Below are positions 1-18,855 of a stretch of DNA of 20,142 nt, piece after piece; positions within the stretch are counted from its first letter, which is position 1; each line of letters starts with the position of its first letter. The translations under genes were made by a program, and so were the position numbers. The notes under the pieces were generated by a model that did not search any database, was not told the DNA's origin, and saw nothing but the letters and a program-made list of their open reading frames with translations. The DNA comes from a virus: positions 1-20,142 of IMG/VR virus record IMGVR_UViG_3300033571_000913. One strand, given 5' to 3'.

Positions 1-3542
<3,542 letters not shown>

Positions 3543-5301: not shown

Positions 5302-5303
5302 CG

Positions 5304-5610: not shown

Positions 5611-5617
5611 CAGGACG

Positions 5618-5628: not shown

Positions 5629-5660
5629 CTGCGAGAGGGATCTAACGGGAGTAGATAAGC

Positions 5661-5699: not shown

Positions 5700-5704
5700 A
5701 CGGG

Positions 5705-5748: not shown

Positions 5749-5766
5749 AGCCTTACGGGGGTTAGG

Positions 5767-6498
5767 TTACCGAGCGGTGAGGACGCCCGCAAGGGACGCC
5801 TCGACCTTCGAGGTGATGAACTGATCGACGGTGAGGCCCGCCTGACGCGCCGCGGCCTCGATCATCTCGGGCATGTCCTCGGCGGTCTGCGCCCACCCCG
5901 CGGTGAGGCGCTCACGCTCGGACTCGACCTTCGCCTGTTCCCGCGCCTCCACGGTCGCAGGATCGACGGTGACGACGGGGCGCTTGCCGAACCCGAACAT
6001 CGGGTCGCGGTCGGAGCGGGTGATCGTGGCGGTGAAGGTGATCCGGTCGCCGACCTCGACAGTCGGGCGGACTCGCGCCGGGTAGCCGGTGAACGCGGTG
6101 AGTGCCTGCGGGACAGTCATCCACGCGGACCAGCCCTCGTCGGTCTGCACCGTCATCTTCCACTCGGGGAAGTGCTCGTCGCCCTTGTTCGCGATCTTCG
6201 TCACGACTGCGGCGATGTCGCGGACGCGGCCCTCGGGGGCGACCGTCCCGGCCTCGGCGGCGGCTGCCTTCTCGGCCTTCAGGGCATCCTCGCGAGCGGT
6301 CTGCTCGGCGCGAGCGGCCTGCCACGCGGGGTTCGGGATGCAGCGGTGCGAGGGCCAGAAGGTGCGGAGGGATCCGAAGTCGCTCCCGCACCAGTCTTTG
6401 CGCTGCGCGAGGTACTTCGAGCCGGACTTGCTTTCGGTCCAGCGGACGGTCGCGCCGCAGTCGCGGCAGGGAAACTCGGGGGAGAGTGCTCGGGTCAT
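5767..6498 (-). CDS. Unknown 243-aa protein with N-terminal zinc-binding motif
   Basis: Starts ATG 6498, six bases after AAGGAG; ends TAA 5767-5769. I do not recognise the family. The first 55 residues contain Cys in CRDCG (11, 14), Cys in DWCG (37) and His/Cys in SHRC (52, 53), a likely zinc-binding module with tryptophans. Residues about 65-85 are an Ala/Glu-rich helix, residues about 90-175 a beta-rich region (EVGDRITFTATITRSDRDP, then FGFGKRPVVTV) resembling an OB-fold-like layout, and the C-terminal third is helical. This layout would suit a nucleic-acid-binding protein, but that is inference. It stands alone as a transcription unit: its own promoter at 6539-6568 and a double hairpin after it. 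It separates the head-tail genes from the tail operon. Confidence 0.85.
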   Translation of the reverse strand: MTRALSPEFPCRDCGATVRWTESKSGSKYLAQRKDWCGSDFGSLRTFWPSHRCIPNPAWQAARAEQTAREDALKAEKAAAAEAGTVAPEGRVRDIAAVVTKIANKGDEHFPEWKMTVQTDEGWSAWMTVPQALTAFTGYPARVRPTVEVGDRITFTATITRSDRDPMFGFGKRPVVTVDPATVEAREQAKVESERERLTAGWAQTAEDMPEMIEAAARQAGLTVDQFITSKVEASLAGVLTAR

Positions 6499-6538
6499 CG
6501 GTGGCTCCTTCGGTCGGTTGCCCTTTCGGGATACCCCG

Positions 6539-6568
6539 AGCCTAACTAACCCCGGTTAGGTCTGTCAA
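6539..6568 (-). promoter_or_regulatory. Sigma70-type promoter with embedded inverted repeat
   Basis: Minus strand TTGACA (6563-6568), an 18-base spacer, then TAGGCT (6539-6544), about 40 bases before the ATG at 6498. It is the best promoter in the window. The spacer holds the inverted repeat CTAACC-CC-GGTTAG (6546-6559, plus-strand reading), exactly where a repressor would block RNA polymerase. Confidence 0.75.
6546..6559. promoter_or_regulatory. Operator-like inverted repeat, copy 1
   Basis: CTAACCCCGGTTAG on the plus strand: six-base half-sites around two bases, between the -35 and -10 boxes. An additional CCTAAC/GGTTAGG overlap extends the dyad. It matches 12 of 14 bases at 13913-13926. 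Confidence 0.55.
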
Positions 6569-6672
6569 GCGATACGGCAGGGAGTGTCCAGCCCTCACAA
6601 TCCCCCGAACCCGAGCCCCCTCCTAGGACACCGCCCACGCCCCGATAGTGCCCCTACGGGCCCCCTAGAGCC
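6569..6672. other. Intergenic leader region without a gene
   Basis: C-rich on the plus strand. It separates the 77-aa gene stop (6673) from the promoter at 6539-6568. I see GGGCCC-type short dyads near 6655-6665 but no convincing terminator, RNA gene or ORF. Confidence 0.5.
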
Positions 6673-6906
6673 TCAGAAGGGCACTAGGTCGCGGATCTGC
6701 CTCACCCGTATGTGCAACTGACAGGCGTACACGACGAGATCCTCGATCTCCTCTAGGGCGTCCTGCACGATCGCGTCCGCGGGCCGCTTCTCGAACCGCT
6801 GCACCCCGGACCCGTCGTCGTACTGGATCATCCCCGGCCCCAAGATCCGATCGGTCAGCCGGTCCACGATCGCCGCAACCTCGGCGGCGTGCTCCTCGGA
6901 AGTCAT
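6673..6906 (-). CDS. Small helical protein of unknown function
   Basis: A 77-aa protein, ATG 6906 to TGA 6673, starting 10 bases after the phosphoesterase stop without a clear ribosome site, so it may depend on reinitiation. The C-terminal half (ADAIVQDALEEIEDLVVYAC, then QLHIRVRQIRDL) has the Glu-rich helix followed by a YA-x-LHIRV-type helix that resembles part of the MazG-like / NTP pyrophosphohydrolase all-alpha fold, but it is too short for a complete catalytic unit and I would not assign an activity. Last gene of the small non-structural group. Confidence 0.72.
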   Translation of the reverse strand: MTSEEHAAEVAAIVDRLTDRILGPGMIQYDDGSGVQRFEKRPADAIVQDALEEIEDLVVYACQLHIRVRQIRDLVPF

Positions 6907-6916
6907 GCCCCGGAGC

Positions 6917-8110
6917 CTAGAGCACGGCTAGGTCAGCCCACCCGCCGTCGCCGATCACGATCGACACCATGCCCGCCGGAGAGTCCTGACCCGTGCGATG
7001 CCGCCACCACGTCGAGCCCCCGTCGAGCGCCGGGATCTGCATGAAGGACTTCGCCCCCGACTGCTCGACCCGCAGGTGGTGAAGGTGCGCCGCGAGGAGC
7101 ATCGTCGCCGAGCCGATCGGCTGCATCCCGTGGGCCTGACCCGCCCACCACTTAATCGGATCCCGCCCGAACTGGTGCCCGTGCGCGAACCCGACCGCCG
7201 TGCCCGCCACGTCGAGCGTGATCGTGAGTTCGTCATGCTGCGGGAACACGAAAGACACATGGTCGTAGCCCTCCGCGAGTTTCAGGGCGTCAGCGACCGC
7301 GGCAGCGCCTTCCACGGCCCACGAGTCGTCGTAGCGGCGCACGACCTTGCCCTCGCGCTGCGCCTCATCGTGGTTGCCCGGAACCACCGGGACCACGATC
7401 CGCTCGGCTAGCGGTGCGAACTGCTGCACTTGATGGAGCATGAGCCGCCGATACACCCGCAACTGCTCGGTCATCGTCAGGTCGAGACGGCCCCCACGGG
7501 CCAGCGCCCCCCCCTGCGACACGAGACCCTCGATGCAGTCACCGAGCCACGCGAGCGTAATCGAGTCGATCTTCCGCCCGAGCCTGCGAAGTTCCTTCAG
7601 CCGCCGCACCGACAGGTCAGTCTTCACGAGGAACCGCTCGATCGTGCCCTCGGTGCCGTCCCCGTCCGGCTTACCGAGTTGCAGATCCCCAGCGAGGACG
7701 CAGTAGGACAGGCCCTCACCCGTTGCCGCCACGGGAGGCTTCGGCTTCCGCTTCCCGATCGCCGCCACGAGTTCATCTATCGAGGCCCCGTCACGGAACC
7801 GCCGCCGGATGATGTTCGCCCGGTAGTAGTAGAGCCGCTGCACGTTGCCCTCGCCGATCCCGGCGTCCCACGCCCGGTACTGCACCGGCTCGATGACCTC
7901 ATACTCGGCAGGGTCGAGATCCCACACCGCGAGCAGTTCAGCCCAGTCCCGAGGCGGAGCGTCGAGCGGGCTCGTTGTCAGGGTGCCGGAGTTACCGTCC
8001 CACGCGACACCGGGCTCCCATCCCGCAGGCGGGCGAGGCGCTGCGGCCCCGCGATAGTCCGAGGTCGGGCCCGGTGACAGGAGAGCGTCGAGGTCTTCGT
8101 CAATGGACAC
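6917..8110 (-). CDS. Calcineurin-like metallophosphoesterase
   Basis: A 397-aa protein from GTG 8110, seven bases after GAGGAG. The metal-site motifs are in order: GD at 141-142 (LAGDLQLG), GD at 190-191 (WLGDCIEG), GNHDE at 245-249, H310-G-H312 (FAHGHQFG) and H342-x-H344 (AAHLHHLR). These fit the calcineurin-like family (dimetal phosphoesterases/nucleases, including Mre11/SbcD-type enzymes). Residues about 38-115 form an extra N-terminal domain (DWAELLAVWDLDP..., VQYRAWDAG) seen in phage relatives and possibly DNA-binding. Known substrates of this family range from DNA to nucleotides and phosphoproteins, so the substrate here is open. It overlaps the preceding gene by 11 bases, implying coupling. 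Finding it inside a structural gene cluster, between tail terminator and tail tube genes, is unusual. Confidence 0.88.
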   Translation of the reverse strand: MSIDEDLDALLSPGPTSDYRGAAAPRPPAGWEPGVAWDGNSGTLTTSPLDAPPRDWAELLAVWDLDPAEYEVIEPVQYRAWDAGIGEGNVQRLYYYRANIIRRRFRDGASIDELVAAIGKRKPKPPVAATGEGLSYCVLAGDLQLGKPDGDGTEGTIERFLVKTDLSVRRLKELRRLGRKIDSITLAWLGDCIEGLVSQGGALARGGRLDLTMTEQLRVYRRLMLHQVQQFAPLAERIVVPVVPGNHDEAQREGKVVRRYDDSWAVEGAAAVADALKLAEGYDHVSFVFPQHDELTITLDVAGTAVGFAHGHQFGRDPIKWWAGQAHGMQPIGSATMLLAAHLHHLRVEQSGAKSFMQIPALDGGSTWWRHRTGQDSPAGMVSIVIGDGGWADLAVL

Positions 8111-8768: not shown

Positions 8769-8968
8769 CCCTGCTCCTGACAGTCAGGGCACATCCAGCC
8801 GTCAGGGTTCGTGAAAGTCGCCAGGGACACCCGGTTCCGATGCGTGCAGCCCGGCTCCCCGTCGAGAACCGCCACGAGCATCTTCCTTGCAGCGAACAGA
8901 CCCGCGATCGCCGCGTCAAGCGCCCCGACCGCCGCCTCGGCAGCCACGCGCTCCTTTCTTACGCTCAC
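8765..8968 (-). CDS. Small zinc-motif protein
   Basis: A 67-aa protein from GTG 8968. The start overlaps the preceding stop as GTGA, which favours this start over a second in-frame GTG closer to the internal AAGGAG. The first 40 residues are an Ala-rich helix; the C-terminus holds CTHRNRVSL...NPDGWMCPDCQ, a Cys-His-x(n)-C-x-x-C zinc site known in small actinobacteriophage proteins near tail genes. Function unknown; binding of nucleic acid or a protein partner is possible. Confidence 0.72.
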   Translation of the reverse strand: MSVRKERVAAEAAVGALDAAIAGLFAARKMLVAVLDGEPGCTHRNRVSLATFTNPDGWMCPDCQEQG

Positions 8969-9366
8969 GGCAGCACCATAGCCTCGAAGTTCACCGACAC
9001 GAGCGGACGATCATTCTGGTCAGGGCCGAGCGGGTTCACCGAGCCCACGGGCCGGATCCGCATAATCCGGATCCCCGAGAGGGTCGTGTCCGTGATCGCC
9101 CCCACGAGTGCCCGCAGCGTGTGCGCCTTGTCCCGGGCCGTGGGGTAGTCGTCGCGACCTGCCCGGCACATGATCTGGATACGGGGCCGGTCGATCGCCG
9201 TCGCCGCAGCCCCGAACGTCTCATCGGGCAGACCCCCCTCGTACTCGAACACGCCCACGCACACGTCAGGGCTCGACGGCATCCGCCCCAGGTACAGGTT
9301 CGTCCCGAGGGTGCCGTGCCCCTGCGCTTGCAGGTAGTTGCCTACCGCCTCTAACACCGTGCTCAT
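8965..9366 (-). CDS. Tail terminator / tail completion protein
   Basis: A 133-aa protein, ATG 9364-9366, overlapping the preceding stop by ATGA. The layout (VLEAVGNYLQAQG at the N-terminus, RIQIMCRAGRDDYPTARDKAH in the middle, and a VNFEAMVLP end) matches the minor-capsid/tail-terminator family of siphophages, which caps the tail tube and joins it to the head. It is the last of four consecutive head-tail connector genes. Assignment rests on pattern and order; the family is divergent in sequence. Confidence 0.8.
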   Translation of the reverse strand: MSTVLEAVGNYLQAQGHGTLGTNLYLGRMPSSPDVCVGVFEYEGGLPDETFGAAATAIDRPRIQIMCRAGRDDYPTARDKAHTLRALVGAITDTTLSGIRIMRIRPVGSVNPLGPDQNDRPLVSVNFEAMVLP

Positions 9367-9767
9367 GCGAGTCCTCTCATCGCCGCGTCCACGCGGTCAG
9401 CGATCCTCGACGCGATATCTCTCGCGCCCTCGACCACGGGCTGCTCTAGGAACTTCGCCTGCGTCGGAGAGTCGTGGGACGTGTCTAGCCGTTCGTGGAC
9501 ATACGTCGCGTACGGGGCAGCCGCGCCGCCGTAACCCATCTCGACCTCGATATCCGAACCCGACACCTTCGGCGGAAGCACCTGACCGGAAGCCCGCAGC
9601 GCACCCGTCCGCACCGGGACGAGCCTCTGCGACTCCGCGAAGATGATCTGCGCCTCCTCATAGATCGCGCGAGCCGTGGCCTGCGCCGCCGCAGGCCCAC
9701 CCTTAGCAAGCAGGTTTAGAAGTTTCTCCTCACCGAGGAGGTCGATGCTGACGCGAACAGTCGCCAC
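9363..9767 (-). CDS. Neck / head-tail joining protein (HK97 gp10-like)
   Basis: A 134-aa protein from GTG 9767, 3 bases after the preceding stop. Ala-rich helices with AQATARAIYEEAQIIFAESQ, then the family signature RLVPVRTGALRASG and a C-terminal YATYVHERLDTSHDSPTQAKFL. V-P-V-x-T-G-x-L-R-x-S is the hallmark of the HK97 gp10-like neck family. Its position before the tail terminator is typical. Confidence 0.88.
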   Translation of the reverse strand: MATVRVSIDLLGEEKLLNLLAKGGPAAAQATARAIYEEAQIIFAESQRLVPVRTGALRASGQVLPPKVSGSDIEVEMGYGGAAAPYATYVHERLDTSHDSPTQAKFLEQPVVEGARDIASRIADRVDAAMRGLA

Positions 9768-9770: not shown

Positions 9771-10097
9771 TCACCGACCTAACGTGACAACGGTGTGATG
9801 ATCCCCGGCCTCATCGCCCACCACGTCCACGGCGACGATGATCGGCGACGTGCCGTCCGGCAGCACGATCCGGTGGTTCGTTGTAAGCGCCGGAGCCCCA
9901 TACAGATACACGACCCCGATCACCGCGACCTCACGGCCCTGATCGTCACGAGTCAGCCGCGAGTCCGCCTGGATCCGCGCGTTGTACGTCGTCCCCGACG
10001 CGCTGAACGTGCGCTTCCCGTAGGCATCGGTCGAGGACTGCGGATACACCGTCACGGTGTCCACCATCATCGACAGGAACTCAGACTCGATCGCCAC
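9771..10097 (-). CDS. Head-tail closure protein
   Basis: A 108-aa protein, GTG 10097 to TGA 9771. Beta-rich, with MVDTVTVYPQSSTDAYGKRT near the start, YNARIQADSR in the middle and GTSPIIVAVDVVGDEAGDHH at the end, a layout found in head-closure/stopper proteins of siphophages (SPP1 gp16-like). It closes the portal channel after DNA packaging. Separated from its neighbours by 3 bases on each side, so likely coupled. Confidence 0.8.
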   Translation of the reverse strand: MAIESEFLSMMVDTVTVYPQSSTDAYGKRTFSASGTTYNARIQADSRLTRDDQGREVAVIGVVYLYGAPALTTNHRIVLPDGTSPIIVAVDVVGDEAGDHHTVVTLGR

Positions 10098-10100: not shown

Positions 10101-10517
10101 TCACCCTCGCAGGTTGTCGAGCATCCCGACCGCGAACTCGGTCCCCGTGTTCGTGGTGCGCTTCTCCGAGCGCACGATCGCGTCCGCCTTGATCCACGGC
10201 TCGGGAGGCGCGGTGCGGTTCCGCTGCGACGCGAGCCTGTCAGCCACGTCACGGAACTGTTGCGCCGCCGACGAGTAGTCCTTCGACAGGGACAGGTCAC
10301 CGACCGACTTCGAGGTCGTGGCCTTCCCCGAGTACCGGGCCGCGAGACCCTCCGCTGCCGCGCGAGCGGCCTCGTACACGTCAGGCCAAGATTCGAGAAG
10401 GTACTCGATCTCCTCGTCCGTGAGTGTCGCCTCGGCGGTCGAGGACACGTCACCGACAAGGAAGCGCACCTTGTCACGGTCGGAGACCGAAGGATCCCCG
10501 GTGTATGTCCAACTCAT
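10101..10517 (-). CDS. Head-tail adaptor (connector) protein
   Basis: A 138-aa protein, ATG 10517, five bases after TAGGAG. N-terminus (YTGDPSVSDRDKVRFLVGD, then LTDEEIEYLLE) is the typical opening of HK97 gp6 / SPP1 gp15-type adaptors in actinobacteriophages, which bind the portal ring. The rest is mainly helical. It begins the connector block, but it is separated from the capsid gene by the 7-kb fibre island. That is unusual because the two are normally adjacent or nearly so. Confidence 0.87.
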   Translation of the reverse strand: MSWTYTGDPSVSDRDKVRFLVGDVSSTAEATLTDEEIEYLLESWPDVYEAARAAAEGLAARYSGKATTSKSVGDLSLSKDYSSAAQQFRDVADRLASQRNRTAPPEPWIKADAIVRSEKRTTNTGTEFAVGMLDNLRG

Positions 10518-10525: not shown

Positions 10526-11386
10526 CTAGTAGTAGATGAGGACGCGACCGTCGCCGCCCGCAGCACCAGCGCCTCCGGTGCCGGAGCCATTACCGCCGCC
10601 CCCACCGCCGCCTCCGCCAGCGCCACCCGCACCACCGGCTCCGCCGACTGTCGTAGATGCCGCCGCGCTTCCGTTCGATCCGGCAGCGACCATGCCAGCG
10701 CCGCCACCGCCACCGCCGCCAGCGGTATTAGCCGTGCCGCCAGTAGATGCGGCGAATGAGCCAGACTGCCCGCCAGCGCCGCCAGCCGCTCCGGCCCCCC
10801 CGCCGCCGCCGCCGCCGATAAGTCCCGCACCCCCGGCACCGCCCGCCGTGGTACTAACACCGGAACCGCCGCCGCCGCCCGAGATGCCCGCGCCCCCAGC
10901 GCCGCCGCCGCCGCCACCGCCAGCACCGCCGTAGGTGATCAGGAACGTGCTAGCAGCGCCCCCCGCTCCTGGGTTCCCGGAACTACCCCCGGCACCGCCG
11001 CCAGCGGAGCCAAGTGCTCCCGCAGTTCCAGCGACACCATTTGCTCCGACGATACCCGCCCCGCCGCCGCCAGCGACAAGCGAGGAATACTGACTCACTC
11101 CGCCAGTTCCACCAGCGGCTCCAGCGCCCCCAGCGGCACCCCCAGAGCCAATGATGACTCGCGTGACGGCAGGAACCCATGCCTGCATGACCGCTCCGGC
11201 GCCGCCACCCGTACCTGGGTTCGTGGTGCTGGCACCGGCGCCACCCCCGCCACCGCCGATGCAGACCGCATACACGAACGTGACACCCGCCGGTATCGTC
11301 ACCGTACCCGTAGACGTAACCGTGTGACGCAACGTCAACCTAGACGGGTCAACACCCGCAGAAGGAGGGAAGGATGAGACGCCCAT
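10526..11386 (-). CDS. Glycine-rich surface protein 3 (adhesin-like)
   Basis: A 286-aa protein starting ATG 11386, whose A is shared with the stop of the preceding gene (TGATG). The first 35 residues (GVDPSRLTLRHTVTSTGTVT) form a beta-type anchor; a hydrophobic strand VTFVYAVCIGGGGGG leads into about 200 residues dominated by Gly, Ala and Ser in runs up to 9 glycines, ending GGDGRVLIYY. This is the glycine-rich phage tip/fibre family; polyglycine runs can pack as PGII sandwiches in phage adhesins. Receptor binding is inferred. Its plus strand reads as long Pro-rich ORFs, which are shadows. Confidence 0.82.
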   Translation of the reverse strand: MGVSSFPPSAGVDPSRLTLRHTVTSTGTVTIPAGVTFVYAVCIGGGGGGAGASTTNPGTGGGAGAVMQAWVPAVTRVIIGSGGAAGGAGAAGGTGGVSQYSSLVAGGGGAGIVGANGVAGTAGALGSAGGGAGGSSGNPGAGGAASTFLITYGGAGGGGGGGAGGAGISGGGGGSGVSTTAGGAGGAGLIGGGGGGGAGAAGGAGGQSGSFAASTGGTANTAGGGGGGGAGMVAAGSNGSAAASTTVGGAGGAGGAGGGGGGGGGNGSGTGGAGAAGGDGRVLIYY

Positions 11387-11691
11387 CAGGTGATCTCCAC
11401 TCCTGAGACGTGCAGATCCACGGACGTAGCCGACGCGCCGCCCGTGATCGTCTCTGTCGTCGCGAGAGGCTGCTTCAAGTCGAGGACGTACGTCGTATTC
11501 GCAGGCACCGCCGCGGCGTTCAGGATGTCAATACCGTTCAGGAACATCGTCGCCGTCTGCGTCGAGGCTGACGTGTTCACCACGGCGATCTGCGTCACGA
11601 TCGTGGTCGTGGACGCCGGGGTCGTGTACAAGACCGTCGCCGTGTTAGTAGTAGCCGCCCCTCGGAACAGGGCCTTCGCAGTAGCAGCCAT
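11386..11691 (-). CDS. Small beta-rich partner of glycine-rich protein 3
   Basis: Read from ATG 11691 (MAATAKALFRG...), sharing the TAATG overlap with the preceding stop, about 101 aa; a GTG 9 bases upstream is less likely because it gives no ribosome site. It contains strands TTIVTQIAVVNTSASTQTATM and VPANTTYVLDLKQPL, and ends DLHVSGVEIT. It is paralogous in layout and end sequence to 13574-13903 (ends YGTEIT). It fits a small tail/head fibre subunit that pairs with the following glycine-rich protein. The stop overlaps that gene's ATG. Confidence 0.75.
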   Translation of the reverse strand: MAATAKALFRGAATTNTATVLYTTPASTTTIVTQIAVVNTSASTQTATMFLNGIDILNAAAVPANTTYVLDLKQPLATTETITGGASATSVDLHVSGVEIT

Positions 11692-11822
11692 TAGGCCCAC
11701 GCTCCCATTAGGGTCATGATCTCGATCTCATTCGCGTCATCCGCGAGGAACTGGATGTCGCGCGGCACGTTCGGGGTGTCACTACCCGCGGGGTAGCGGA
11801 AACCCACGTTCGTCTCAGGCAT
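11691..11822 (-). CDS. 43-aa fibre-anchor-like protein
   Basis: ATG 11822 to TAA 11691-11693. Begins MPETNVGFRYPAGSDTPNVP and continues DIQFLADDANEIEIMTLMGAWA. The FRYPAGSDTPNVPRDIQ-LA block matches the N-terminus of the larger protein at 16360-16947 (LPFPSSSDAANVPADLQALA), so it looks like a free-standing copy of that N-terminal segment. It overlaps the preceding gene by 8 bases and the next by one. Whether it is a real gene or a remnant of a larger fibre gene is open; the tight overlaps favour translation. Confidence 0.62.
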   Translation of the reverse strand: MPETNVGFRYPAGSDTPNVPRDIQFLADDANEIEIMTLMGAWA

Positions 11823-12039
11823 CGCTCTCGGGCTCCTCGACGGGCTCGGGCTCCTCGACCGCAGGCGGCTCGGGAGCCGGAGGCGCGGTCCACACGCCGT
11901 CCACGAGTGTCCAGCCGATCCACGGATCGCCCTCAGTCTCAACCGCAGACAAACCCGTGACCTCCTCAGCGATATCCTGCGAGTCCGCCACGATCACGTT
12001 CACTACCGTCGAACCGTCGTGAATAGCGAAGTTAGGCAT
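11815..12039 (-). CDS. Small fibre-associated protein with acidic Pro tail
   Basis: A 74-aa protein from ATG 12039, preceded by GAGAGG about six bases upstream; a longer start at 12174 adds a basic N-terminus without support. The N-terminal part (PNFAIHDGSTVVNVIVADS..., WIGWTLVDGVWTAP) resembles the short bacteriophage proteins often found next to fibre genes, including the nearby gene at 15273-15602. The C-terminus (PPAPEPPAVEEPEPVEEPE) is a Pro/Glu tail as in 5304-5519. Function unknown; tail-fibre assembly is a guess by context. Confidence 0.65.
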   Translation of the reverse strand: MPNFAIHDGSTVVNVIVADSQDIAEEVTGLSAVETEGDPWIGWTLVDGVWTAPPAPEPPAVEEPEPVEEPESDA

Positions 12040-12050
12040 ATTTCCCTCTC

Positions 12051-12737
12051 TTACCTGTATTCCTTGCGCGACCAGAACTGACGCTTGTACGAGTTGAACC
12101 AGAGTGAGCGCAGCCTCACAGCCGCTCTCGCCTGAGCGCGGCGATCGTCGTTTCCGCCTAAGGTCATCTTCCACGAGTCACGCCTAAACGGGATCACCTG
12201 AGCGATCGGTGTACCGGCGGGGATTAGGCCCTGCCACTTAGAGTCATTGAGAACGAATGGGAAGTTCACCGGAGCCGTGTATCTATCTGTGTCCACGATG
12301 CCCGGCAGGATAGTGAACATACCGTTGGGGTTGTGCATAGGTGGGACGAACAGGCATGAGTGCCCACGCGGAGTCCTAATCGCCCACGGGTTCATCCACT
12401 TCGGGTATGCGGGCATAGAGTTCGCCTGCGGATGCTTGTCGGCCTGCTCTATGGGATGGAACGAAAGCATCTCAGCGAGAGTCCACTCGTACCAAGGCAT
12501 ACCGTCGCGCTGAGTCACCTGCACATCCGCGTAGGTGCGAAGTATGTATCCAGCCGTCATAGCGTCGAAGACCGGGATGCACTTCTTCACGGTATGCGGT
12601 GTCTGCCCGAAGTCAATAACACGCTTACCGCCAATGTACTCCGGCGTTGCCTTGTACCACTCAGGCAGCAAGCGGCTAGCAGGGACAGGAGCGTACTGCT
12701 CATCTATCCCTACGGTGTCCGTGAGTGTGATCTGCAT
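12051..12737 (-). CDS. Conserved protein of a marine-phage-associated family
   Basis: A 228-aa protein, ATG 12737 to TAA 12051, no clear ribosome site. Its pattern (PASRLLPEWYKATPEYIGGK, TVKKCIPVFDAMTAGYI, WAIRTPRGHSCLFVPPM, GIVDTDRYTAPVNFPFV, GTPIAQVIPFRR) is that of a family I recall from cyanophages and other aquatic phages, described only as a domain of unknown function (DUF6065-like by memory, not verified). It contains many Trp/Tyr/Pro residues and looks like a globular beta-rich protein. GC is clearly lower than in neighbours (30/60 in 12241-12300), suggesting recent transfer. A virion role is inferred only from its place among fibre genes. Confidence 0.72.
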   Translation of the reverse strand: MQITLTDTVGIDEQYAPVPASRLLPEWYKATPEYIGGKRVIDFGQTPHTVKKCIPVFDAMTAGYILRTYADVQVTQRDGMPWYEWTLAEMLSFHPIEQADKHPQANSMPAYPKWMNPWAIRTPRGHSCLFVPPMHNPNGMFTILPGIVDTDRYTAPVNFPFVLNDSKWQGLIPAGTPIAQVIPFRRDSWKMTLGGNDDRRAQARAAVRLRSLWFNSYKRQFWSRKEYR

Positions 12738-12752
12738 CAGATAGTTCGCCCG

Positions 12753-13574
12753 TCACACCAGCGGTAGAACATAGACGACTCCGGCACTACCGGCAGCCCC
12801 GGCATTACGAGCGGGCCACACCCCGCCGCCGCCCGCGCCGTATCCGCTTCCGGCACCACCGGCAACATTGAAGGTAGCGTGGGCACCTCCCGTGCCGATG
12901 CCACTTCCGGCTCCGCCGCCCCCTCCCGTAGTGGCGAAGGCGAGTGTGGTCGTGAACCCGGGTGATGATACGAGACCGGACCCGGCTCCGCCCGGTGTGC
13001 CGCCTACCCCGTTGAAACTACCGCCGTTAGCCGTGAGGGCACCGAACGATGTTGCTCCGCCCGCTGCACCGTACAGTCCAGCCGCTCCGATGGTCACCGA
13101 AGTCGTGGCGTTGGTCGTTATCTTCTGCACAAGAACTCCCCCACTACCTCCGCCAAGACCCTGCACATTCTGGCTTCCGCCTCCGCCGCCGCCGACGACA
13201 CACACGAACATAGTTCCGGTCGTGGTGTAGTTACCCGTAGCGGTGATAGTCGCGGGAGTCCCGAATGTTGTAGAGCCTGCGGTTACAGACGCGAGGCGCT
13301 CAATCGCAAGGATGCCTGCCGACTGAAGCGAGTACATGATCTCAGTTGCGTCTGCCGTGAGTTCCACGAGAACCTCGGCGGTTCCTGTGGCCCCGGCGAT
13401 CCTTGTGCTAGAAGAGTCGAAGAAGATTACGTTGAAGGTCTGTCCGGGGGTGCTGAACTTCACCGCATACGCGCCTGCGGGCAGGTTGACCGTAGCCCGA
13501 GCGACAGCGGTGCTTCCTACCGTGGCCCACGCTCCTACCCTGCTTACGAGGGGAGCGACCCGTGAGATACCCAT
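12753..13574 (-). CDS. Glycine-rich surface protein 2 (adhesin-like)
   Basis: A 273-aa protein starting ATG 13574 with TGATG overlap to the preceding stop. Residues 1-100 form a beta-rich domain (VNLPAGAYAVKFSTPGQTF, then IFFDSSSTRIAGATGTAEV) that could be a trimeric or carbohydrate-contact domain; residues about 115-130 (GTMFVCVVGGGGGG) start the glycine-rich part, which ends SAGVVYVLPLV. The two-domain plan differs from glycine-rich protein 3, which has a short anchor only. Likely a receptor-binding or capsid/tail display protein. Confidence 0.8.
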   Translation of the reverse strand: MGISRVAPLVSRVGAWATVGSTAVARATVNLPAGAYAVKFSTPGQTFNVIFFDSSSTRIAGATGTAEVLVELTADATEIMYSLQSAGILAIERLASVTAGSTTFGTPATITATGNYTTTGTMFVCVVGGGGGGSQNVQGLGGGSGGVLVQKITTNATTSVTIGAAGLYGAAGGATSFGALTANGGSFNGVGGTPGGAGSGLVSSPGFTTTLAFATTGGGGGAGSGIGTGGAHATFNVAGGAGSGYGAGGGGVWPARNAGAAGSAGVVYVLPLV

Positions 13575-13903
13575 CAGGTGATCTCCGTTCCGTACAGGTT
13601 GAACGTTAGATTCGCATTACCCCCGTACACGGTCACCACATCTGCCGCGTCTACGGTGATACCAAGAGACAAGGCCACGATGTCATTCGCGGCGATAGCG
13701 GTGTCGAAGGCGATGTAGTGCTGATTCGCCAGCGTCGCCGCGTTAGGGCGGACGGCGATTCTGAACGTGGTAGCCGATGCCGCCCGGTTAGCGACCACGA
13801 TGGAGGAGATCACGACCTGCGTCGATGCGGTCACCGTGTAGATGTCCGTGTTCGTCGTGGCGCTCGGGGCTGACTGCCCCAACACCTTGTACGCGATCGG
13901 CAT
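13574..13903 (-). CDS. Small beta-rich partner of glycine-rich protein 2
   Basis: A 109-aa protein, ATG 13901-13903, preceded by GGAGAGG five bases upstream. It has strands ASTQVVISSIVVANRAASATT and FRIAVRPNAATLANQHYIAF, a DIVALSLGITVDAADVVTVYGG segment, and the end YGTEIT. It is a paralogue of 11386-11691; both are followed by a glycine-rich gene with the same 17-bp junction (cccatcaggtgatctcc, plus strand). The gene is preceded by a palindrome at 13914-13925. Confidence 0.78.
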   Translation of the reverse strand: MPIAYKVLGQSAPSATTNTDIYTVTASTQVVISSIVVANRAASATTFRIAVRPNAATLANQHYIAFDTAIAANDIVALSLGITVDAADVVTVYGGNANLTFNLYGTEIT

Positions 13904-13912
13904 TAGCCTCTC

Positions 13913-13926
13913 CTAACCCGGGTTAC
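13913..13926. promoter_or_regulatory. Operator-like palindrome, copy 2
   Basis: TAACCCGGGTTA at 13914-13925 is a perfect 12-bp palindrome within CTAACCCGGGTTAC (13913-13926), which agrees with the 6546-6559 element at 12 of 14 positions. It lies between the fibre gene stop (13965) and the start at 13903, close to the ribosome site. No convincing -35/-10 pair is seen next to it. Confidence 0.45.
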
Positions 13927-13964
13927 CCGCTCTATCACGGGGATGGTGTTCAGTCTACCGCCGG

Positions 13965-14723
13965 TCACGCCGCACCCGTGAACACGAACGGATGCGGATC
14001 CCGCACCTCCGCGGCCTCCGCTGCCGCCCTACCGGCCTGCGCCGTAGCCTGCGACGCCTGCGCCGCCGTCGCGTAGTTCTGGATCGCCGCAGACGTGGCG
14101 AGGATCTGCGCGGTGATGAGCGCCGTGTACGTCGCAGGTCCGCTCGACGCGAGCAGCGTGTACGTCGCGTAGCCCACGGGAACCGAGTTGTACACGCTCG
14201 TCATGATGATCCCGGTCGTGGGCGGGGTCGTGTCCACGGTCGCTTCGGCAGCCGTGACCCGGATCGCCAGCGAAGCGTAGATCGCCTGCGACGCGAGCGA
14301 GACGTGCGGGGTCACCGCGGCGGCAGGGGCAAGGTCTGCCATGTCCGCGCTAACCTGCGTCGCCTCTCCGTACGACTCGCCTAGCGTGATCCAGTAGGCG
14401 TACGTCTGCTGCCCGAACTCCGTGTATGTCAAGGGAACGGGTAGAACCATCGAGAACGTCCGGCCCGACGCGAAGGACTCCGTGACCGTGTAGGTGAACG
14501 TCTCATGGAAGTCCGGATCATTCGTTGAAGGTAGCGTCGCCGAGAACTGACCGTTCGCATCCAACGTCGCGTAATACGCCGAGGGAACAAGGATCTGATC
14601 CGCGAGCGCGTTCCGCAGCATCTTCGGCACCCGGAAGATAACCTGACCGGCTATCGCGTTCCCCTGGAAGTCCACATACGTCCCCGTCACGACCACCGTG
14701 GACACGTTCGATGCGAGAGGCAT
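13965..14723 (-). CDS. Fibre protein paralogue B (long)
   Basis: A 252-aa protein from ATG 14723, one base after the preceding stop. N-terminal half is a beta-rich domain (MPLASNVSTVVVTGTYVDFQ, GNAIAGQVIFRVP, LDANGQFSATLPSTNDPDF), continuing FTYTVTESFASGRTFSMVLP; it is paralogous to 14725-15270 in the same segments. Residues about 110-180 are an insert absent from the shorter copy, including TPHVSLASQAIYAS and TTPPTTGIIMTSVYNS. The end is an Ala-rich coiled coil (QASQATAQAGRAAAEAAE) and HPFVF, shared with its paralogue. A trimeric fibre or appendage is likely. Confidence 0.8.
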   Translation of the reverse strand: MPLASNVSTVVVTGTYVDFQGNAIAGQVIFRVPKMLRNALADQILVPSAYYATLDANGQFSATLPSTNDPDFHETFTYTVTESFASGRTFSMVLPVPLTYTEFGQQTYAYWITLGESYGEATQVSADMADLAPAAAVTPHVSLASQAIYASLAIRVTAAEATVDTTPPTTGIIMTSVYNSVPVGYATYTLLASSGPATYTALITAQILATSAAIQNYATAAQASQATAQAGRAAAEAAEVRDPHPFVFTGAA

Positions 14724-14724
14724 G

Positions 14725-15270
14725 TCAGATCCCCAGGAACACGAACGGGTGCAGGATCCTGGCCTCCGCTGCCGCCGCAGCGTTCGCCGCCGTCGTCGCG
14801 GCAGCCGACGCCGTAGCGACCTGCCCCGCCGCCGTCTGCACCGAAGTGGTCACCGTCTCGATCGTGCCGACCCGCGTCTCCAACGCCCCGAACGTCGAAA
14901 GCAGGACGTAAGTGTTCGCTTCAGACGAGCCCGCCGGAACCGCCGGAGCCAGATCCGCGAGGTTCTGTGTCGAAGGTGCAGCAGAGAGCGTGATGTCGAA
15001 CGTCCGCCCCCCCGTGAACGCCTCCTCGACCCTGTAAGTGAACGCCGTGGGAGACACGTCCGGGTCGTCAGTTGCCGGGAGCACCGTAGTGAACGCACCG
15101 TTCGCGTCGAGATCCACCACGATCGTCTTAGGGACGATGATCTGATTCGCTGTCGAGTCCGTGAGGATCGCCCGAGGCGTAAACTTCACCTGACCCGCGA
15201 TAGCGGCACCAGATACGTCCACGAACTGCCCGCCCAGGGTCACCGTAGATAGGTTAGGTGTTAGAGGCAC
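14725..15270 (-). CDS. Fibre protein paralogue A (short)
   Basis: A 181-aa protein from GTG 15270, five bases after GAGGAG. Begins MPLTPNLSTVTLGGQFVDVSG, followed by AIAGQVKFTPRAIL, LDANGAFTTVLPATDDPDV and VEEAFTGGRTFDITL. These line up one-to-one with 13965-14723. A C-terminal Ala-rich helix (AAGQVATASAAATTAANAAA) and HPFVFLGI end complete the pair. Tandem duplication is the simple explanation. Similar N-terminal domains are annotated in actinobacteriophages as minor tail/fibre proteins; attachment site (tail or head) is uncertain here. Confidence 0.8.
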   Translation of the reverse strand: MPLTPNLSTVTLGGQFVDVSGAAIAGQVKFTPRAILTDSTANQIIVPKTIVVDLDANGAFTTVLPATDDPDVSPTAFTYRVEEAFTGGRTFDITLSAAPSTQNLADLAPAVPAGSSEANTYVLLSTFGALETRVGTIETVTTSVQTAAGQVATASAAATTAANAAAAAEARILHPFVFLGI

Positions 15271-15272
15271 AT

Positions 15273-15602
15273 CTACTCCTCACCGTCAGACTCAACGATC
15301 CACGAGTAAGTGTCCGTGTCGAACACGGCATCCGCTGACGGCCTCGGCAGAGGGACGAACATGTCCAGTTCAGCGTCGTAGCACGATCCCGGCCCCGGGT
15401 AGGTGCCGCGAAACGGTGTGCCGCCCGCAACATGCTTACCGAGGATCGTGTTGTAGGAGCAGCGCTTCCAAGTTCCGGGCATCCCGCACTCCGCGAGATA
15501 CACATTCACCGCAGTCTCGTCATCCTCATTCACAGACACGCTATTGACCACGACGACCTCCTCCACGATGCTGTTTTCAGCGAGCCGTGCGTAATGCGCC
15601 AT
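15273..15602 (-). CDS. Fibre-associated protein of marine-phage type
   Basis: A 109-aa protein, ATG 15602 (TAATG overlap with the preceding stop) to TAG 15273. The layout MAHYARLAENSIVEEVVVVN, AECGMPGTWKRCSYNTILGK, FRGTYPGPGSCYDAELDMFV and YSWIVESDGEE closely recalls the short T4-like cyanophage proteins with MAHFA...NNVVTQVIVV...W-QTSYN...YAGIGYTYD...F-PSW order. These are usually next to fibre genes. This is recognition by pattern, not by a search. Two-base spacing to the next gene. Confidence 0.76.
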   Translation of the reverse strand: MAHYARLAENSIVEEVVVVNSVSVNEDDETAVNVYLAECGMPGTWKRCSYNTILGKHVAGGTPFRGTYPGPGSCYDAELDMFVPLPRPSADAVFDTDTYSWIVESDGEE

Positions 15603-16360
15603 TAGCCGATCACCACAATCACGATTCCCGACCCGCCTGTACTAACGATCGCCCCGCCGCCGCCGCCCCTGTTAGCGGTGCCGTTAGTGCCGTTGGGGTT
15701 ACCCGCACCGCCGCCACCTCCTGTTCCGCCTGCGCCGAACCCGCCTGAGTTGTTGTATCCTGCGCCACCGCCTGCGTAGAAAACCGAAGATCCGGTGATC
15801 GAGTTCGATGCACCCGCGCCGCCGTCCAGCCCAATGCCAGCCGCTCCGGCACCCCCGCCGCCGCCGCTCTGAGTACCCGTGCCTGAAGTGCCGTTATTGC
15901 CCTGCGTCAGAATAGCCAGCCCACCCGCGTTCTGCGACGCGCTACCCCCCCCGCCTGACCCGCCCCTGACGGCGGGCTGTGCCGTCCCACCGCCACCTCC
16001 GCCTACCGCGACATAGGGGCCAAGCCGCGAGTCACTACCGAAGTTGGCAATCCCAGAGCCACCCCCCCCGATAGTGACGGTCTGCACGCCAACTGGAAGC
16101 CACACGGTAGTGGAGTAAACATAGCCACCCGCACCTCCACCCCCGGGCTGCGAACCATTGTTCGCTCCGCCCCCGCCGCCGCCGACGATAAGCGCCTCCA
16201 CCATGCCAGCAGCACTAACCGTGATAGACCCTGATCCGGTGAACGTGTAGATCGTCTTTCCCGGCCTGTTAGTCGTGTTAGTCGTGGCCCCAGACGAACC
16301 AGAGACGACCGCAAGCGGTGTGCCACCACCACCGAACGCGAACCCTGCAAACGTAGGCAT
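15602..16360 (-). CDS. Glycine-rich surface protein 1 (adhesin-like)
   Basis: A 252-aa protein, ATG 16358-16360, TGATG overlap with the preceding stop. Short N-terminus (PTFAGFAFGGGGTPLAVVSG), then the strand KTIYTFTGSGSITVSAAGMV leading to EALIVGGGGGGANN and about 170 residues of Gly runs with Asn/Ser/Thr spacers, ending GGSGIVIVVIG. The IVGGGGGG start and GSGIVIV end are standard for the glycine-rich phage tail protein family. Likely a receptor-contact or surface protein. Confidence 0.82.
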   Translation of the reverse strand: MPTFAGFAFGGGGTPLAVVSGSSGATTNTTNRPGKTIYTFTGSGSITVSAAGMVEALIVGGGGGGANNGSQPGGGGAGGYVYSTTVWLPVGVQTVTIGGGGSGIANFGSDSRLGPYVAVGGGGGGTAQPAVRGGSGGGGSASQNAGGLAILTQGNNGTSGTGTQSGGGGGAGAAGIGLDGGAGASNSITGSSVFYAGGGAGYNNSGGFGAGGTGGGGGAGNPNGTNGTANRGGGGGAIVSTGGSGIVIVVIG

Positions 16361-16947
16361 CAGGCAGCCCTCGCCAATCCCTCGATGACCGTGAACGTAG
16401 CGTTCGCGGTCTTGATTATCGTCGCCGTGTAGATGTCGATCGAGTTCGCATTACCGGCGCTGGGAGCGGTGCCGCCGATCCAACGCGGAGTGACAGCGGA
16501 GCCGTCCACCTGAAACGCTGTCTGGTAGTAGGCGGTGCCGCCGTTCGTCACGAGGAACGCGATAGTGATGGACTGGCCCGTGGAGAGGAGCGAGTTCAGA
16601 GTTGTACCCCCGTTGCCGCGTACGTTCAGCGTCCAGTTCGCAGAAGCGTTCGTCGTGTAGTAGACGACGCTCGACGTGATCGCATCGAAAGCGATCGTGC
16701 CAGTCGCAGCCGTGGCGGAGATCGTGATTGTCTCCTCCGGTGCCGTCAGCACGGGCGACGTGAGCGAGGCGTTCGCGAGTGTCGCGTATGTCGAAGCCGC
16801 CGAGGACTGCGACAGGTACGTCGAAGCCGCCGTCGCAGACTTCAGATACGCACCCTCCACGCCGAGCGCGAGCGCCTGCAAGTCCGCGGGCACATTAGCG
16901 GCGTCCGAAGAAGACGGGAACGGAAGCCCGCCCGGAGTCGTAGGCAC
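16360..16947 (-). CDS. Fibre protein with N-terminal anchor and marine-type C-terminal domain
   Basis: A 195-aa protein from GTG 16947, seven bases after GGGAGG. Residues 1-30 (LPFPSSSDAANVPADLQALA) form an anchor motif also present in the 43-aa gene 11691-11822. Residues about 36-65 repeat AASTYLSQSSAASTYATLAN-like units, likely a trimeric stalk. The C-terminal about 120 residues (SSVVYYTTNASANWTLNVRG, STGQSITIAFLVTNGGTAYYQ, GGTAPSAGNANSIDIYTATI) recall a domain common in cyanophage and pelagic-phage fibres. It is coupled to glycine-rich protein 1. Confidence 0.8.
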   Translation of the reverse strand: MPTTPGGLPFPSSSDAANVPADLQALALGVEGAYLKSATAASTYLSQSSAASTYATLANASLTSPVLTAPEETITISATAATGTIAFDAITSSVVYYTTNASANWTLNVRGNGGTTLNSLLSTGQSITIAFLVTNGGTAYYQTAFQVDGSAVTPRWIGGTAPSAGNANSIDIYTATIIKTANATFTVIEGLARAA

Positions 16948-16971
16948 TTATGAACCTCCCCTAGATGCGCC

Positions 16972-17015
16972 GAGCGGCGGGGCCAGCGAGGATCACCCGC
17001 TGAATCCCGCCGCTC
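16972..17015 (-). terminator. Long hairpin inside the fibre island
   Basis: GAGCGGCGGG (16972-16981) pairs with CCCGCCGCTC (17006-17015); inside it CAGCG (16984-16988) pairs with CGCTG (16998-17002). It occupies the only long gap (87 bases) near the start of the island, between the 139-aa gene and the 195-aa fibre gene, and is followed by the latter's ribosome site, so it may attenuate or end transcription coming from the capsid gene. No U tract is seen. Confidence 0.6.
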
Positions 17016-17034
17016 AGGCTGAACTAACTACCTA

Positions 17035-17454
17035 TCAGGTTAGGTCAACCCACAGGTAACGGAACGTATGAGACGCCTCGTTGATCGGTGAATTAGTCGC
17101 ATTGACCGCGTACACCGTGACCGTGTTAGCGCCAGTCACACCAGCACCCGCGAAGGCGAGTCCCGATGTGAGCGCCGGAGGGTTCACCACAATGATGTCA
17201 CCGACAGCAGCGCCCGTGACCGTGATAGTGCCCGATCCGGTAGCCCCGGCAGAGATCGACGGGAGGTCGATAGCGCCGGTGCCCGTGCTAATGCCCTTAA
17301 CTACGGAACCTCCGCCCACGGCGAGCGTACCCGCCGTAAGGTCTCCCGTCACCGTAGCGTCGTCACCGACCGTGAGGTCATCGGTAGCAGCCACATCGTC
17401 GTCGGACTGTAGCCGACCTACAAGTGCTTCTCCCTTAGTGAGACGGTTAGACAT
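17035..17454 (-). CDS. Fibre-type protein coupled to the capsid gene
   Basis: A 139-aa protein from ATG 17454, sharing one base with the stop of the major capsid gene (TGATG). Residues about 18-48 (DDDVAATDDLTVGDDATVTG, DLTAGTLAVGGG) are short repeats typical of fibre stalks built from beta-strands; the C-terminal 90 residues (STGTGAIDLPSISAGATGSG, TVTVYAVNATNSPINEASHT) form a beta-rich domain ending YLWVDLT that resembles a common fibre domain. Direct coupling to the capsid gene suggests production in proportion to capsid protein, which is unusual for a tail fibre. Confidence 0.78.
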   Translation of the reverse strand: MSNRLTKGEALVGRLQSDDDVAATDDLTVGDDATVTGDLTAGTLAVGGGSVVKGISTGTGAIDLPSISAGATGSGTITVTGAAVGDIIVVNPPALTSGLAFAGAGVTGANTVTVYAVNATNSPINEASHTFRYLWVDLT

Positions 17455-18431
17455 CAGGCCACCACGGTGTTCATGAAGTAGCCCAGGTCGCTCGACACGA
17501 CCTTGTTGTCGAAGGCCACCTCGGCCTCGACGCGGCTAGCCTTCAGGTGCTCCATGCGGAACTGCGAAGTGCCGATCGTCTGACCGAGACCGCCGCTGAC
17601 GCCGGTCCACGAGAAGATGTATCCCGCGGACGGGGTGAGCAGGCCCGGGTTCTGGGCGACGTGCATGAGGCACGCAACCTTGCCCGTGGCGAAGCCGTAA
17701 GCCTCCGCAGCGCCCTCGGCGTTCGTGGCCTTGACCGACTTCGCGACGAGAACACGATCGACCTCGAACATGCGTGCGAGCATGTCCGCCGTGACGGTCT
17801 GAGCACTCGTGTACTTGATGCGGTCCACGATGTCGGGGTGGTTACGCAACTTCCGGAACACGTCGTAGCCGAGGACGAGGGTGTTCGCCTCCATGCCCGT
17901 GTTCGAGAGGATCTGCGCCTTGCCAGCCTCGACAGTCTCGATCGGATCCGAGTTCGCGTAGTCGCTCCACTGCTTGAACTCGCCCGCACCGGGAGAGCCT
18001 GCGACACCGGCAACGTCGGTGCCCCACACGCCCGTGGTGAGGAAGTCCGAGACGAACTGAAGTTCGCGACGCACGAGCATACGCATCGTGACGAACTCGG
18101 CAGCCTCGCGGAGCGGGTTCAGCGGAACGTCAGCGTTCGCGAGGGTCTGATCGTCCACGTCCTTGTGGAACGCGAACACGTCAGCGGAGTAGGTGTCCGT
18201 GGTCAGGCCGTATCCGGAGCCCGCGGACTCGGTGCCGGGAGCGCGGCGCTGGGCCTCGTCACGGAACCAGTCATTCTTGGTGTACTTGAAGTACTTGTCG
18301 GACTTCTTCTCGACAGGCACGACAGGGAACACCTTGTCTGCGATGAAGTTCTCCGAACGCTGCATGTACGCGACCGAGATGTTGGTCAGGATCGCATCAA
18401 CGTGAACGGAGTTGATGTGCGGCTGTGGCAT
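17454..18431 (-). CDS. Major capsid protein
   Basis: A 325-aa protein, ATG 18431. Features include NFIADKVFPVVPVEKKSDKY, FKYTKNDWFRDEAQRRAPGT, ADVFAFHKDVDDQTLANADV, PLNPLREAAEFVTMRMLVRR and the C-terminal EVAFDNKVVSSDLGYFMNTV. This is a recognised actinobacteriophage-type capsid protein of the HK97-like fold (fold assignment is from family knowledge). No N-terminal delta domain of about 100 residues is present, consistent with a separate scaffold gene upstream. It follows the decoration gene by 31 bases and leads directly into the fibre island. Confidence 0.9.
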   Translation of the reverse strand: MPQPHINSVHVDAILTNISVAYMQRSENFIADKVFPVVPVEKKSDKYFKYTKNDWFRDEAQRRAPGTESAGSGYGLTTDTYSADVFAFHKDVDDQTLANADVPLNPLREAAEFVTMRMLVRRELQFVSDFLTTGVWGTDVAGVAGSPGAGEFKQWSDYANSDPIETVEAGKAQILSNTGMEANTLVLGYDVFRKLRNHPDIVDRIKYTSAQTVTADMLARMFEVDRVLVAKSVKATNAEGAAEAYGFATGKVACLMHVAQNPGLLTPSAGYIFSWTGVSGGLGQTIGTSQFRMEHLKASRVEAEVAFDNKVVSSDLGYFMNTVVA

Positions 18432-18462: not shown

Positions 18463-18855
18463 CTAGGCCGCGCGACCAGCGGACGCGCAGTTCACGACGA
18501 CGGTGATGATCTCGGCGGAAGCACCCTCGGTGAGAGCCTGCCCGACGACGAACTTGGTGGTGTCGGTGCCGAAGGTGAGGGCAACGCCCGCACCAGCAGC
18601 CGACGTGCCCACGGCAGCGCCCTCGGCGACTGAGCCGCCGAGCACGACCTTGGTGCCGCCGATGACGGTAACCTCGGCCTCCTGACCGGAGAGCGGGGCG
18701 TTCTGGAGAACACCGATCGGCTTGTCAGTCACGGCAGCGCACAGGATGGCCTGCCCGCTAGCGTTCAACTTGACGAACTTGTACTGTGCGCTGGAGAGAT
18801 CCGCCCCCGCGACGAGGGTGATCTTCAGCGCGTTAGGGTTGATCTCGTAGGCCAC
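18463..18855 (-). CDS. Capsid decoration / head-stabilising protein (DUF2190-like)
   Basis: A 130-aa protein from GTG 18855, two bases after the scaffold gene stop, with a GGGGG-type ribosome site. Short beta-strands and Gly/Ala loops: ALKITLVAGADLSSAQYKFV, ILCAAVTDKPIGVLQNAPLS, EVTVIGGTKVVLGGSVAEGA, ending TVVVNCASAGRAA. This is the typical pattern of the DUF2190-like decoration proteins found between scaffold/protease and major capsid genes. It would bind to the capsid exterior. Confidence 0.83.
   Translation of the reverse strand: MAYEINPNALKITLVAGADLSSAQYKFVKLNASGQAILCAAVTDKPIGVLQNAPLSGQEAEVTVIGGTKVVLGGSVAEGAAVGTSAAGAGVALTFGTDTTKFVVGQALTEGASAEIITVVVNCASAGRAA

Follow-up and report, generated by a model that had tools for sequence, protein, structure and literature searches.

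The window analysed here is a 20,142-nucleotide stretch of viral DNA (positions 1 to 20,142 of IMG/VR virus record IMGVR_UViG_3300033571_000913) with its structural genes on the minus strand. Between the major capsid gene at 17454-18431 and the head-tail connector genes, which run from 10517 downwards, it holds an island of fibre and surface-type genes whose span, 10526-17454, had been given exactly in a first-pass annotation; the ten genes counted there are too few, as we find 13 plausible open reading frames (ORFs; i1-i13). Our comparisons suggest that the island is probably a receptor-binding cassette, with conserved anchors and exchangeable adhesins, that has moved to the capsid/connector junction and most likely serves the tail. 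From the capsid gene downstream, the locus reads as follows.

17454-18431, minus strand: major capsid protein of the Phage_cap_E type, upstream border of the island (PHROG 1005 'major head protein', 8.5e-102; Pfam Phage_cap_E, 9.2e-6)
17035-17454, minus strand: i1, 139 amino acids, coupled by TGATG to the capsid stop; head-block gene, possibly a small spike or decoration protein
16360-16947, minus strand: i2, 195 amino acids, with an N-terminus of the YPxxSDxxNVPxDLQxLA type (by eye) and a knob domain (PHROG 5906)
15602-16360, minus strand: i3, 252 amino acids, glycine-rich, adhesin-type (Pfam Gly_rich_2, 2.8e-10; PHROG 2295)
15273-15602, minus strand: i4, 109 amino acids, small protein accompanying adhesins, with a putative role in assembly (PHROG 7759)
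14725-15270, minus strand: i5, 181 amino acids, putative anchor with a phiC31 gp49-type N-terminal domain, an Ala-rich stalk and a C-terminal FVFLGI (PHROG 14726 'tail fiber protein', 2.6e-17)
13965-14723, minus strand: i6, 252 amino acids, i5 paralogue and putative anchor with a C-terminal FVFTGAA (PHROG 14726, 2.6e-15)
13574-13903, minus strand: i7, 109 amino acids, cassette component (PHROG 1276; 50% to phiPsal1 gp21; 63 IMG/VR loci)
12753-13574, minus strand: i8, 273 amino acids, glycine-rich, adhesin-type, coupled to i7 by TGATG at 13574 (PHROG 863 'tail fiber assembly', 2.5e-7; no Pfam match)
12051-12737, minus strand: i9, 228 amino acids, DUF6065-like (PHROG 7084, 2.4e-60; DUF6065 at 0.0075, below the cut-off)
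11815-12039, minus strand: i10, 74 amino acids, possibly a distant i4 relative (PHROG 14370 at 0.0022 for 11815-12081)
11691-11822, minus strand: i11, 43 amino acids, short anchor whose translation holds YPAGSDTPNVPRDIQFLA and LMGA near the C-terminus
11386-11691, minus strand: i12, 101 amino acids, distant i7 relative (PHROG 1276 at 1e-5 for 11386-11700; 39% over 41 amino acids to i7)
10526-11386, minus strand: i13, 286 amino acids, glycine-rich, adhesin-type, coupled to i12 by TGATG at 11386 (Gly_rich_2 at 1.2e-4, under the cut-off)
10101-10517, minus strand: first gene of the connector block, downstream border of the island (PHROG 1732, a family without a named function, 1.4e-20; present in 31 survey loci)
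9771-10097, minus strand: head-tail connector/adaptor gene (PHROG 3881/793)
9363-9767, minus strand: HK97-gp10-like gene (Pfam)
8965-9366, minus strand: tail terminator gene (Pfam)

The capsid protein is 55-61% identical to capsids of Arthrobacter and Microbacterium phages. By its position, and with a gene of connector/adaptor type next to it, the product of 10101-10517 is presumably an adaptor. The fibre or surface-type character assigned to the island at first pass holds, given the PHROG names 'tail fiber protein' for i5 and i6 and 'tail fiber assembly' for i8, and the glycine-rich sequences of i3, i8 and i13. Against the 24.3-bit cut-off of Gly_rich_2 (PF21722), i3 scored above (41 bits) and i13 just below (22.6 bits), while i8 had no Pfam match despite its glycine-rich sequence. 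The paralogues i5 and i6 share 51% over 95 amino acids. The best family of i7 is without a name, and a weak match to PHROG 693 'tail fiber protein' was also seen; a scan of genome contigs for i7 gave no relative in 118 candidate stretches. Sequence searches of the PDB returned nothing at E <= 1 for i3 or for the i2 and i5 alignments, and four weak matches to unrelated proteins for the i1 alignment. A PHROG match of the i11 region to 'head and packaging, virion structural protein' (0.059) was not used as evidence of location.

The arrangement was confirmed on a second contig, G001 (IMGVR_UViG_3300032322_000399, 52,820 bp), which matches the window over an unbroken 12,289 bases that take in the whole island (99.93%) and over window positions 1-7900 (100%). 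Together with the many relatives that share the arrangement, this rules out an assembly error, which had been raised at first pass as a way the observation might fail. G001 is classed as linear in IMG/VR; since its two ends share 221 overlapping bases, 4 of them mismatched, it is probably a near-whole genome of about 52.6 kb. We then surveyed loci by capsid protein, taking the best 80 of 362 related IMG/VR stretches and three reference phages (83 loci), among which capsid and connector genes were both present in 31. The distance between the two was 69-77 bp in six loci, 331-413 bp in two, 1,874-3,354 bp in four and 6,150-9,160 bp in 19, G001 included. The placement, rightly called unusual for a siphophage in the earlier annotation, thus recurs in related genomes, and the island is a trait of the lineage. 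Islands of the main clade open with i1 and continue with one or two small proteins, i5 (179-181 amino acids), in several genomes a 65-amino-acid protein, i6 and i7 (108-109 amino acids), usually followed by an i2-type fibre, variable adhesins, i4 in most, an i11/i2-type anchor and the connector. The window carries a shuffled version of this order with three adhesin sets: i2-i3-i4, i7-i8 and i11-i12-i13.

Comparison of close relatives separated the constant from the variable genes. In contigs G003, G004 and G005, identity is 98-99% for the capsids, 94-100% for the 65-amino-acid protein, i5, i6 and i7, and 97-100% for the four connector genes. It drops to 37-62% for i4, and the long middle adhesins either fail to align or do so over at most 44% of their length. 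Between G006 and G007, the mean of identity times coverage was 98.1 for core genes and 39.4 for the island (from 17 and 20 gene calls, with probable spurious ones among the 20), and two further pairs gave 70.4/50.3 and 65.8/45.8, with the proviso that spurious ORF calls depress core and island values alike. Judged from these alignments, the per-gene pattern is that of a fixed frame around an exchangeable middle.

The anchors, although of unrelated sequence (i5, the 65-amino-acid protein, i6 and i11), end alike in hydrophobic residues plus Gly, as in FVFLGI, LLLIGG, FFLVGA and FLLMGA. This pattern was found in 49 of 215 island gene calls versus 4 of 1,277 others, the four being two island genes (read before contig ends were joined), a tail-end anchor of contig G013 and one tailB gene, so that three of them belong to the cassette. 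A Shine-Dalgarno sequence may contribute to the motif where the next gene starts at once, and a partial overlap with a ribosome-binding site is possible; it does not explain i6 of G001, which bears the motif with no close gene start behind it, nor the hydrophobic residues. The motif may be a docking tag. The i5 family itself is represented in 31 phage records, mostly from Streptomyces phages, where the gene is annotated as tail fibre or minor tail. Its member gp49 of phiC31 (NC_001978), itself annotated as a tail fibre, lies between tail genes and the endolysin and resembles the i5 N-terminal domain (about 36% over 108 amino acids, E 2e-7), and i6 through PHROG 14726. In phiC31, where it is encoded behind the tail genes, the domain is part of a single long protein with collagen repeats, whereas here it is carried by short separate proteins beside the capsid gene.

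The closest counterpart of the whole set was found behind tail genes, in Pontimonas phage phiPsal1 (MG835450). There, the order is tape measure, gp19 (annotated as a putative tail fibre and read here as a hub), gp20 (an 86-amino-acid anchor ending in LMLMGG), gp21 (the i7 homologue), a glycine-rich ORF, gp24, an M23 peptidase and, further on, a holin; hub and anchor, like tailA, tailB and tailC below, are labels of this analysis. The glycine-rich ORF is an unannotated open stretch of 302 codons at 12337-13242 (locus L175) with a Gly_rich_2 match of 1.4e-23; Pfam was used for this comparison, as BLASTP of i3 against it was uninformative, probably owing to low-complexity masking. The annotated gp22 and gp23 of phiPsal1 overlie this stretch in another frame. 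With i4, gp24 shares 42% over 74 amino acids, and it also weakly matches PHROG 14370 (0.0031), the family matched by i10. Thus, a hydrophobic-Gly anchor, an i7 homologue, a Gly_rich_2 protein and an i4 homologue follow in the same order in both genomes; phiPsal1 differs in carrying them as single copies after the tape measure and gp19 and before the peptidase and holin, and the window in carrying repeated modules between capsid and connector. In the available text of its source, phiPsal1 is reported only as a sequencing by-product (PMC6106888).

Further loci extend this comparison. L186 and L189 carry a gp19-type gene, a gp20-type anchor and i7; L196 carries a gp19-type gene, a 309-amino-acid protein ending in FLLIGA (PHROG 693, tail fiber) and i7; L223 carries a gp20-type anchor, i7, a glycine-rich gene, i4 and an M23 peptidase, its tape measure and gp19-type gene not being identified by marker. 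In all four (4/4), the gene preceding i7 ends in the hydrophobic-Gly motif. The next three contigs have tail genes resembling those of the window genome. In G013, which has a related capsid gene and a 412-bp gap occupied by i1 alone, tailC is followed at once by an i11-type gene (a weak match, 15 bits) and an i7-type gene (73 bits). G027, with a related capsid gene, a gap of 286 and no island, has an i11-type gene (40 bits) after tailB. In G021, where no capsid gene like that of the window was found, tailC is followed by an i11-type anchor and by an ORF judged glycine-rich by eye (no Pfam match). The whole cassette set therefore stands behind tail genes in phiPsal1 and L223, and parts of it in L186, L189, L196, G013, G021 and G027. 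Since the same families adjoin the last tail gene in these phages, the tail tip is the most likely docking site of the island proteins. Evidence from phiPsal1, L186, L189 and L196, which have phiPsal1-type capsids, is separate support beside the contrast within the capsid tree. That close relatives would build the tail tip from the same genes, the outcome named at first pass as fatal to a head location, was borne out for the position of the genes and not for the location of their proteins.

The reverse count points the same way. Among 24 contigs read, 13 can be read at the tail end and also carry an island no shorter than 5.7 kb (G001-G008, G010, G018 and G023-G025), and none of these 13 has an i2-, i7- or i11-type match at the tail end. 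A Fisher exact test by hand gave about 0.002 for 0/13 versus 3/3, where Microbacterium phage ValentiniPuff, whose post-tail gene is outside the i2, i7 and i11 families, is counted, and about 0.01 for 0/13 versus 2/2 (G013 and G027); because the rows are related, we do not rely on these values.

The first gene of the interval stands apart from the rest. Its start overlaps the capsid stop in a TGATG at 17454, exactly as first described, and this coupling had been taken, with the position of the island, to suggest that the products are made with the capsid and possibly displayed on the head. Here, 60 survey ORFs were assigned to i1, and G013 and G015, neither of which has a fibre island, likewise carry i1 beside the capsid gene; as it adjoins the capsid gene in such island-less relatives, i1 belongs to the head block and not to the fibre cassette. 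Start/stop overlaps recur at i2/i3, i3/i4, i7/i8, i11/i12 and i12/i13 and are not special to the capsid/i1 border. The TGATG was accordingly rejected as evidence that the island is expressed with the capsid, and with the remaining families behind tail genes elsewhere, a head location is not supported by position and coupling. In the i1 model, a beta domain at the C-terminus (residues 51-139) is confidently predicted, and its residues 54-139 resemble tailspike C-terminal domains best (Z 7.8, 7.7 and then 6.8), a likeness below the level that marks a clear relation, with dUTPases next (Z <=6.2); Foldseek with i1 gave no match at E <= 0.001. Of the genes in the interval, i1 would be the best candidate for a head-bound spike.

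The knob domain of i2 provides the strongest single point for a head location. Its model is confident for residues 71-195 and poor upstream of them, and among solved structures the Pa223 capsid spike (from a Pseudomonas phage; 9ny6) matches it best, with Foldseek 9.5e-4 and Z 7.3 over 107 residues; the two appear to share the fold at only 13% identity. Next come a chain from the baseplate region of a Klebsiella phage and T4 gp9 (Z 5.9), then CBA120 TSP4 (Z 5.7). Among predicted viral structures, the closest matches of the knob come from uncultured phages (unnamed and collagen-repeat proteins) and from cyanophages (a sericin-like protein and a tail fibre protein), and the sequence relatives of i2 are structural and tail fibre proteins of cyanophages and roseophages. 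The fold is used in both head and tail, and because the knob also resembles T4 gp9 and TSP4, the location of i2 in the virion cannot be read from it. With a Z under 8 and tail proteins matched by the same knob, the Pa223 spike was not accepted as proof of a head location; no paper title among the matches listed names this spike. Of the two genes proposed at first pass for structure prediction, 17035-17454 (i1) resembles tailspike ends, and 16360-16947 (i2) resembles both a capsid spike and tail proteins.

Fibre-type genes beside a related capsid gene are also present in Arthrobacter phage Laroye (Laroyevirus), where gp28 (PHROG 6614, minor tail protein) and gp29 lie between capsid and connectors. 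Laroye differs in having two main genes in about 3 kb, a weak sequence link to i5 (E 0.004) and no Gly_rich_2 match. In ValentiniPuff, which has no island, the knob of a post-tail protein matches Laroye gp28 (26% over 120 amino acids, E 4e-6), while Laroye gp28 itself follows the capsid gene; in Arthrobacter phages Gordon and Zeina, gp28 homologues lie between a major tail protein gene and the tape-measure gene. Since homologues of Laroye's capsid-adjacent fibre sit among tail genes there, the position of fibre genes is labile. The available text on cluster AL, to which Laroye belongs, calls its gene order unusual, with 37 genes between the capsid and major tail genes, most of the inserted ones of unknown function, and the term 'tail fiber' is absent from the main text as available (PMC5513430). 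In Nanopelagicales phages, according to the accessible part of one report, tail fibre and collagen-like genes occupy a variable region, which is linked there to host recognition (PMC10202952). Among the matches listed for literature on head fibres, capsid fibres and capsid-adjacent fibre genes, no title or abstract opening reports the present gene order, the description of cluster AL excepted.

Taken together, these comparisons suggest that a cassette whose usual place is behind the tail genes moved to the capsid-connector junction, presumably in this direction. Its conserved anchors (i5, i6 and the i11/i2 N-termini) would probably dock on the virion, most likely at the tail tip, and carry putative exchangeable adhesins, namely the glycine-rich i3, i8 and i13 and the i2 knob, with the small helpers i4 and i10 presumably aiding assembly; i1 would be a separate head-block gene. 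The island shares tail-fibre families with other phages (i5 and i6 with PHROG 14726 'tail fiber protein' and their relation to phiC31 gp49), although it does not occupy the place behind the tape-measure and other tail genes where tail fibres are usually, not necessarily, encoded.

Several observations weigh against this explanation. On the capsid tree (44 distinct proteins), the island label needs two changes and its absence three, with deep forks left open, and the contrast between island-bearing and island-less phages hence rests on a handful of events. Of the 64 i7 loci (63 from IMG/VR and L179), 11 are of the island type and four are at the tail end behind an anchor-like gene (L186, L189, L196 and L223), while 49 are not placeable relative to head or tail markers; podo-like contigs L179 and L192 (PHROG 1357 capsid) are not usable for deciding between head and tail. 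In three of the six genome pairs, core and island means are alike (77.9/78.9, 73.1/76.7 and 78.8/75.3). The hydrophobic-Gly pattern counted above was set up after the data had been seen, and for the i2 knob the Pa223 capsid spike outranks tail proteins (Z 5.3-5.9). Finally, G001 encodes tailC (223 amino acids) behind its tape measure, the latter named by length (1,273 amino acids) and place; as tailC is a possible tail-tip adhesin, the island is not the sole candidate for that role. In G001, tailB matches PHROG 1887 'tail protein' (2.3e-57), tailA has weak matches only, and the match of tailC to PHROG 13989 'virion structural protein' (1.9e-16) was not used as evidence of location. The C-terminal domain of G001 tailC is missing in some relatives, which have versions of 78-81 amino acids, and tailC may be a second, exchangeable tail-tip adhesin; among the 13 contigs that have both an island and a readable tail end, 7 carry the short form.

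The head offers the foremost alternative site. There, i1 and the island proteins would be made with the capsid and displayed as fibres that bind cells or surfaces weakly and multivalently before the tail engages, as could be expected from the capsid-connector position conserved in 19 of 31 loci, the coupling of i1, the Z 7.3 match of the i2 knob to a capsid spike and the compact beta domain of the i1 model, which is like spike C-termini. Phi29 gp8.5 and SPP1 gp12 are known head fibres, and as here, a fibre-like gene lies close to the capsid gene; no sequence link to them emerged in Pfam or PHROG searches of the island proteins, none of which matched a head-fibre family. The same families behind tail genes in phiPsal1, L186, L189, L196, G013, G021 and G027, the occurrence of i1 without an island (G013), the count of 0/13 for cassette genes at the tail end of island-bearing phages, and structural scores that stay below Z 8 and extend to tail proteins all make head fibres unlikely. 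Head display is possible and not favoured, and the earlier interpretation is partly supported, the observation behind it being real. About as unlikely is a variant in which the lineage came to direct the adhesin cassette of the tail tip to the capsid instead, perhaps via i1 or the hydrophobic-Gly motif of the anchors; if true, the head would bear an adhesin array open to rapid exchange, and the tail tip beside it would be minimal.

It is improbable that the junction is merely a general insertion slot whose contents say nothing about the virion, even though other cassettes can use it: in G015 (L139) the place of the fibres beside i1 is taken by an endolysin-like gene and a pair of small ORFs (membrane-type by eye); phiPsal1 has glycosyltransferase genes between its capsid and neck genes, and in Laroye 37 genes separate the capsid gene from the major tail genes (available text of PMC5513430). 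The main-clade content is of fibre type and ordered (i1, i5, i6, i7, i2 ... i4, i11), more than a random slot would hold, and an insertion slot is in any case compatible with a relocated cassette. Attachment at the head-tail connector as neck or collar fibres we regard as least probable. The block directly precedes the connector genes, and in other phages neck fibres encoded near connector genes are known; yet no island ORF matched a Pfam or PHROG family named collar or neck-fibre protein, and the cassette behind tail genes elsewhere needs no neck site. The same adhesin families occur either behind tail genes or beside the capsid gene, so that position alone, often used for guessing where phage proteins reside, would mislead annotation in a common lineage of environmental phages. 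The constant anchors and exchangeable adhesins also indicate likely host-range genes in relatives of Arthrobacter and Microbacterium phages.

Other genes of the locus deserve mention. Relatives of i9 were found in 53 phage records, for the most part haloarchaeal viruses; in the haloarchaeal tailed virus HSTV-2, the i9 relative lies near thymidylate synthase and not among structural genes. The gene before the capsid gene (18463-18855) matches PHROG 673 'head scaffolding protein', and for gp99, which occupies the corresponding place in Arthrobacter phage Ottawa, the annotation reads 'head fiber protein'. Between the tail terminator and tail tube genes, an exonuclease/metallophosphatase-like gene at 6917-8110 (PHROG 284, 4.9e-67) is kept in the relatives compared. 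Two tandem major-tail-protein-like genes of 239 and 142 amino acids occupy 4141-5301, and this doublet was present in 16 of 16 contigs with a match, out of 19 searched.

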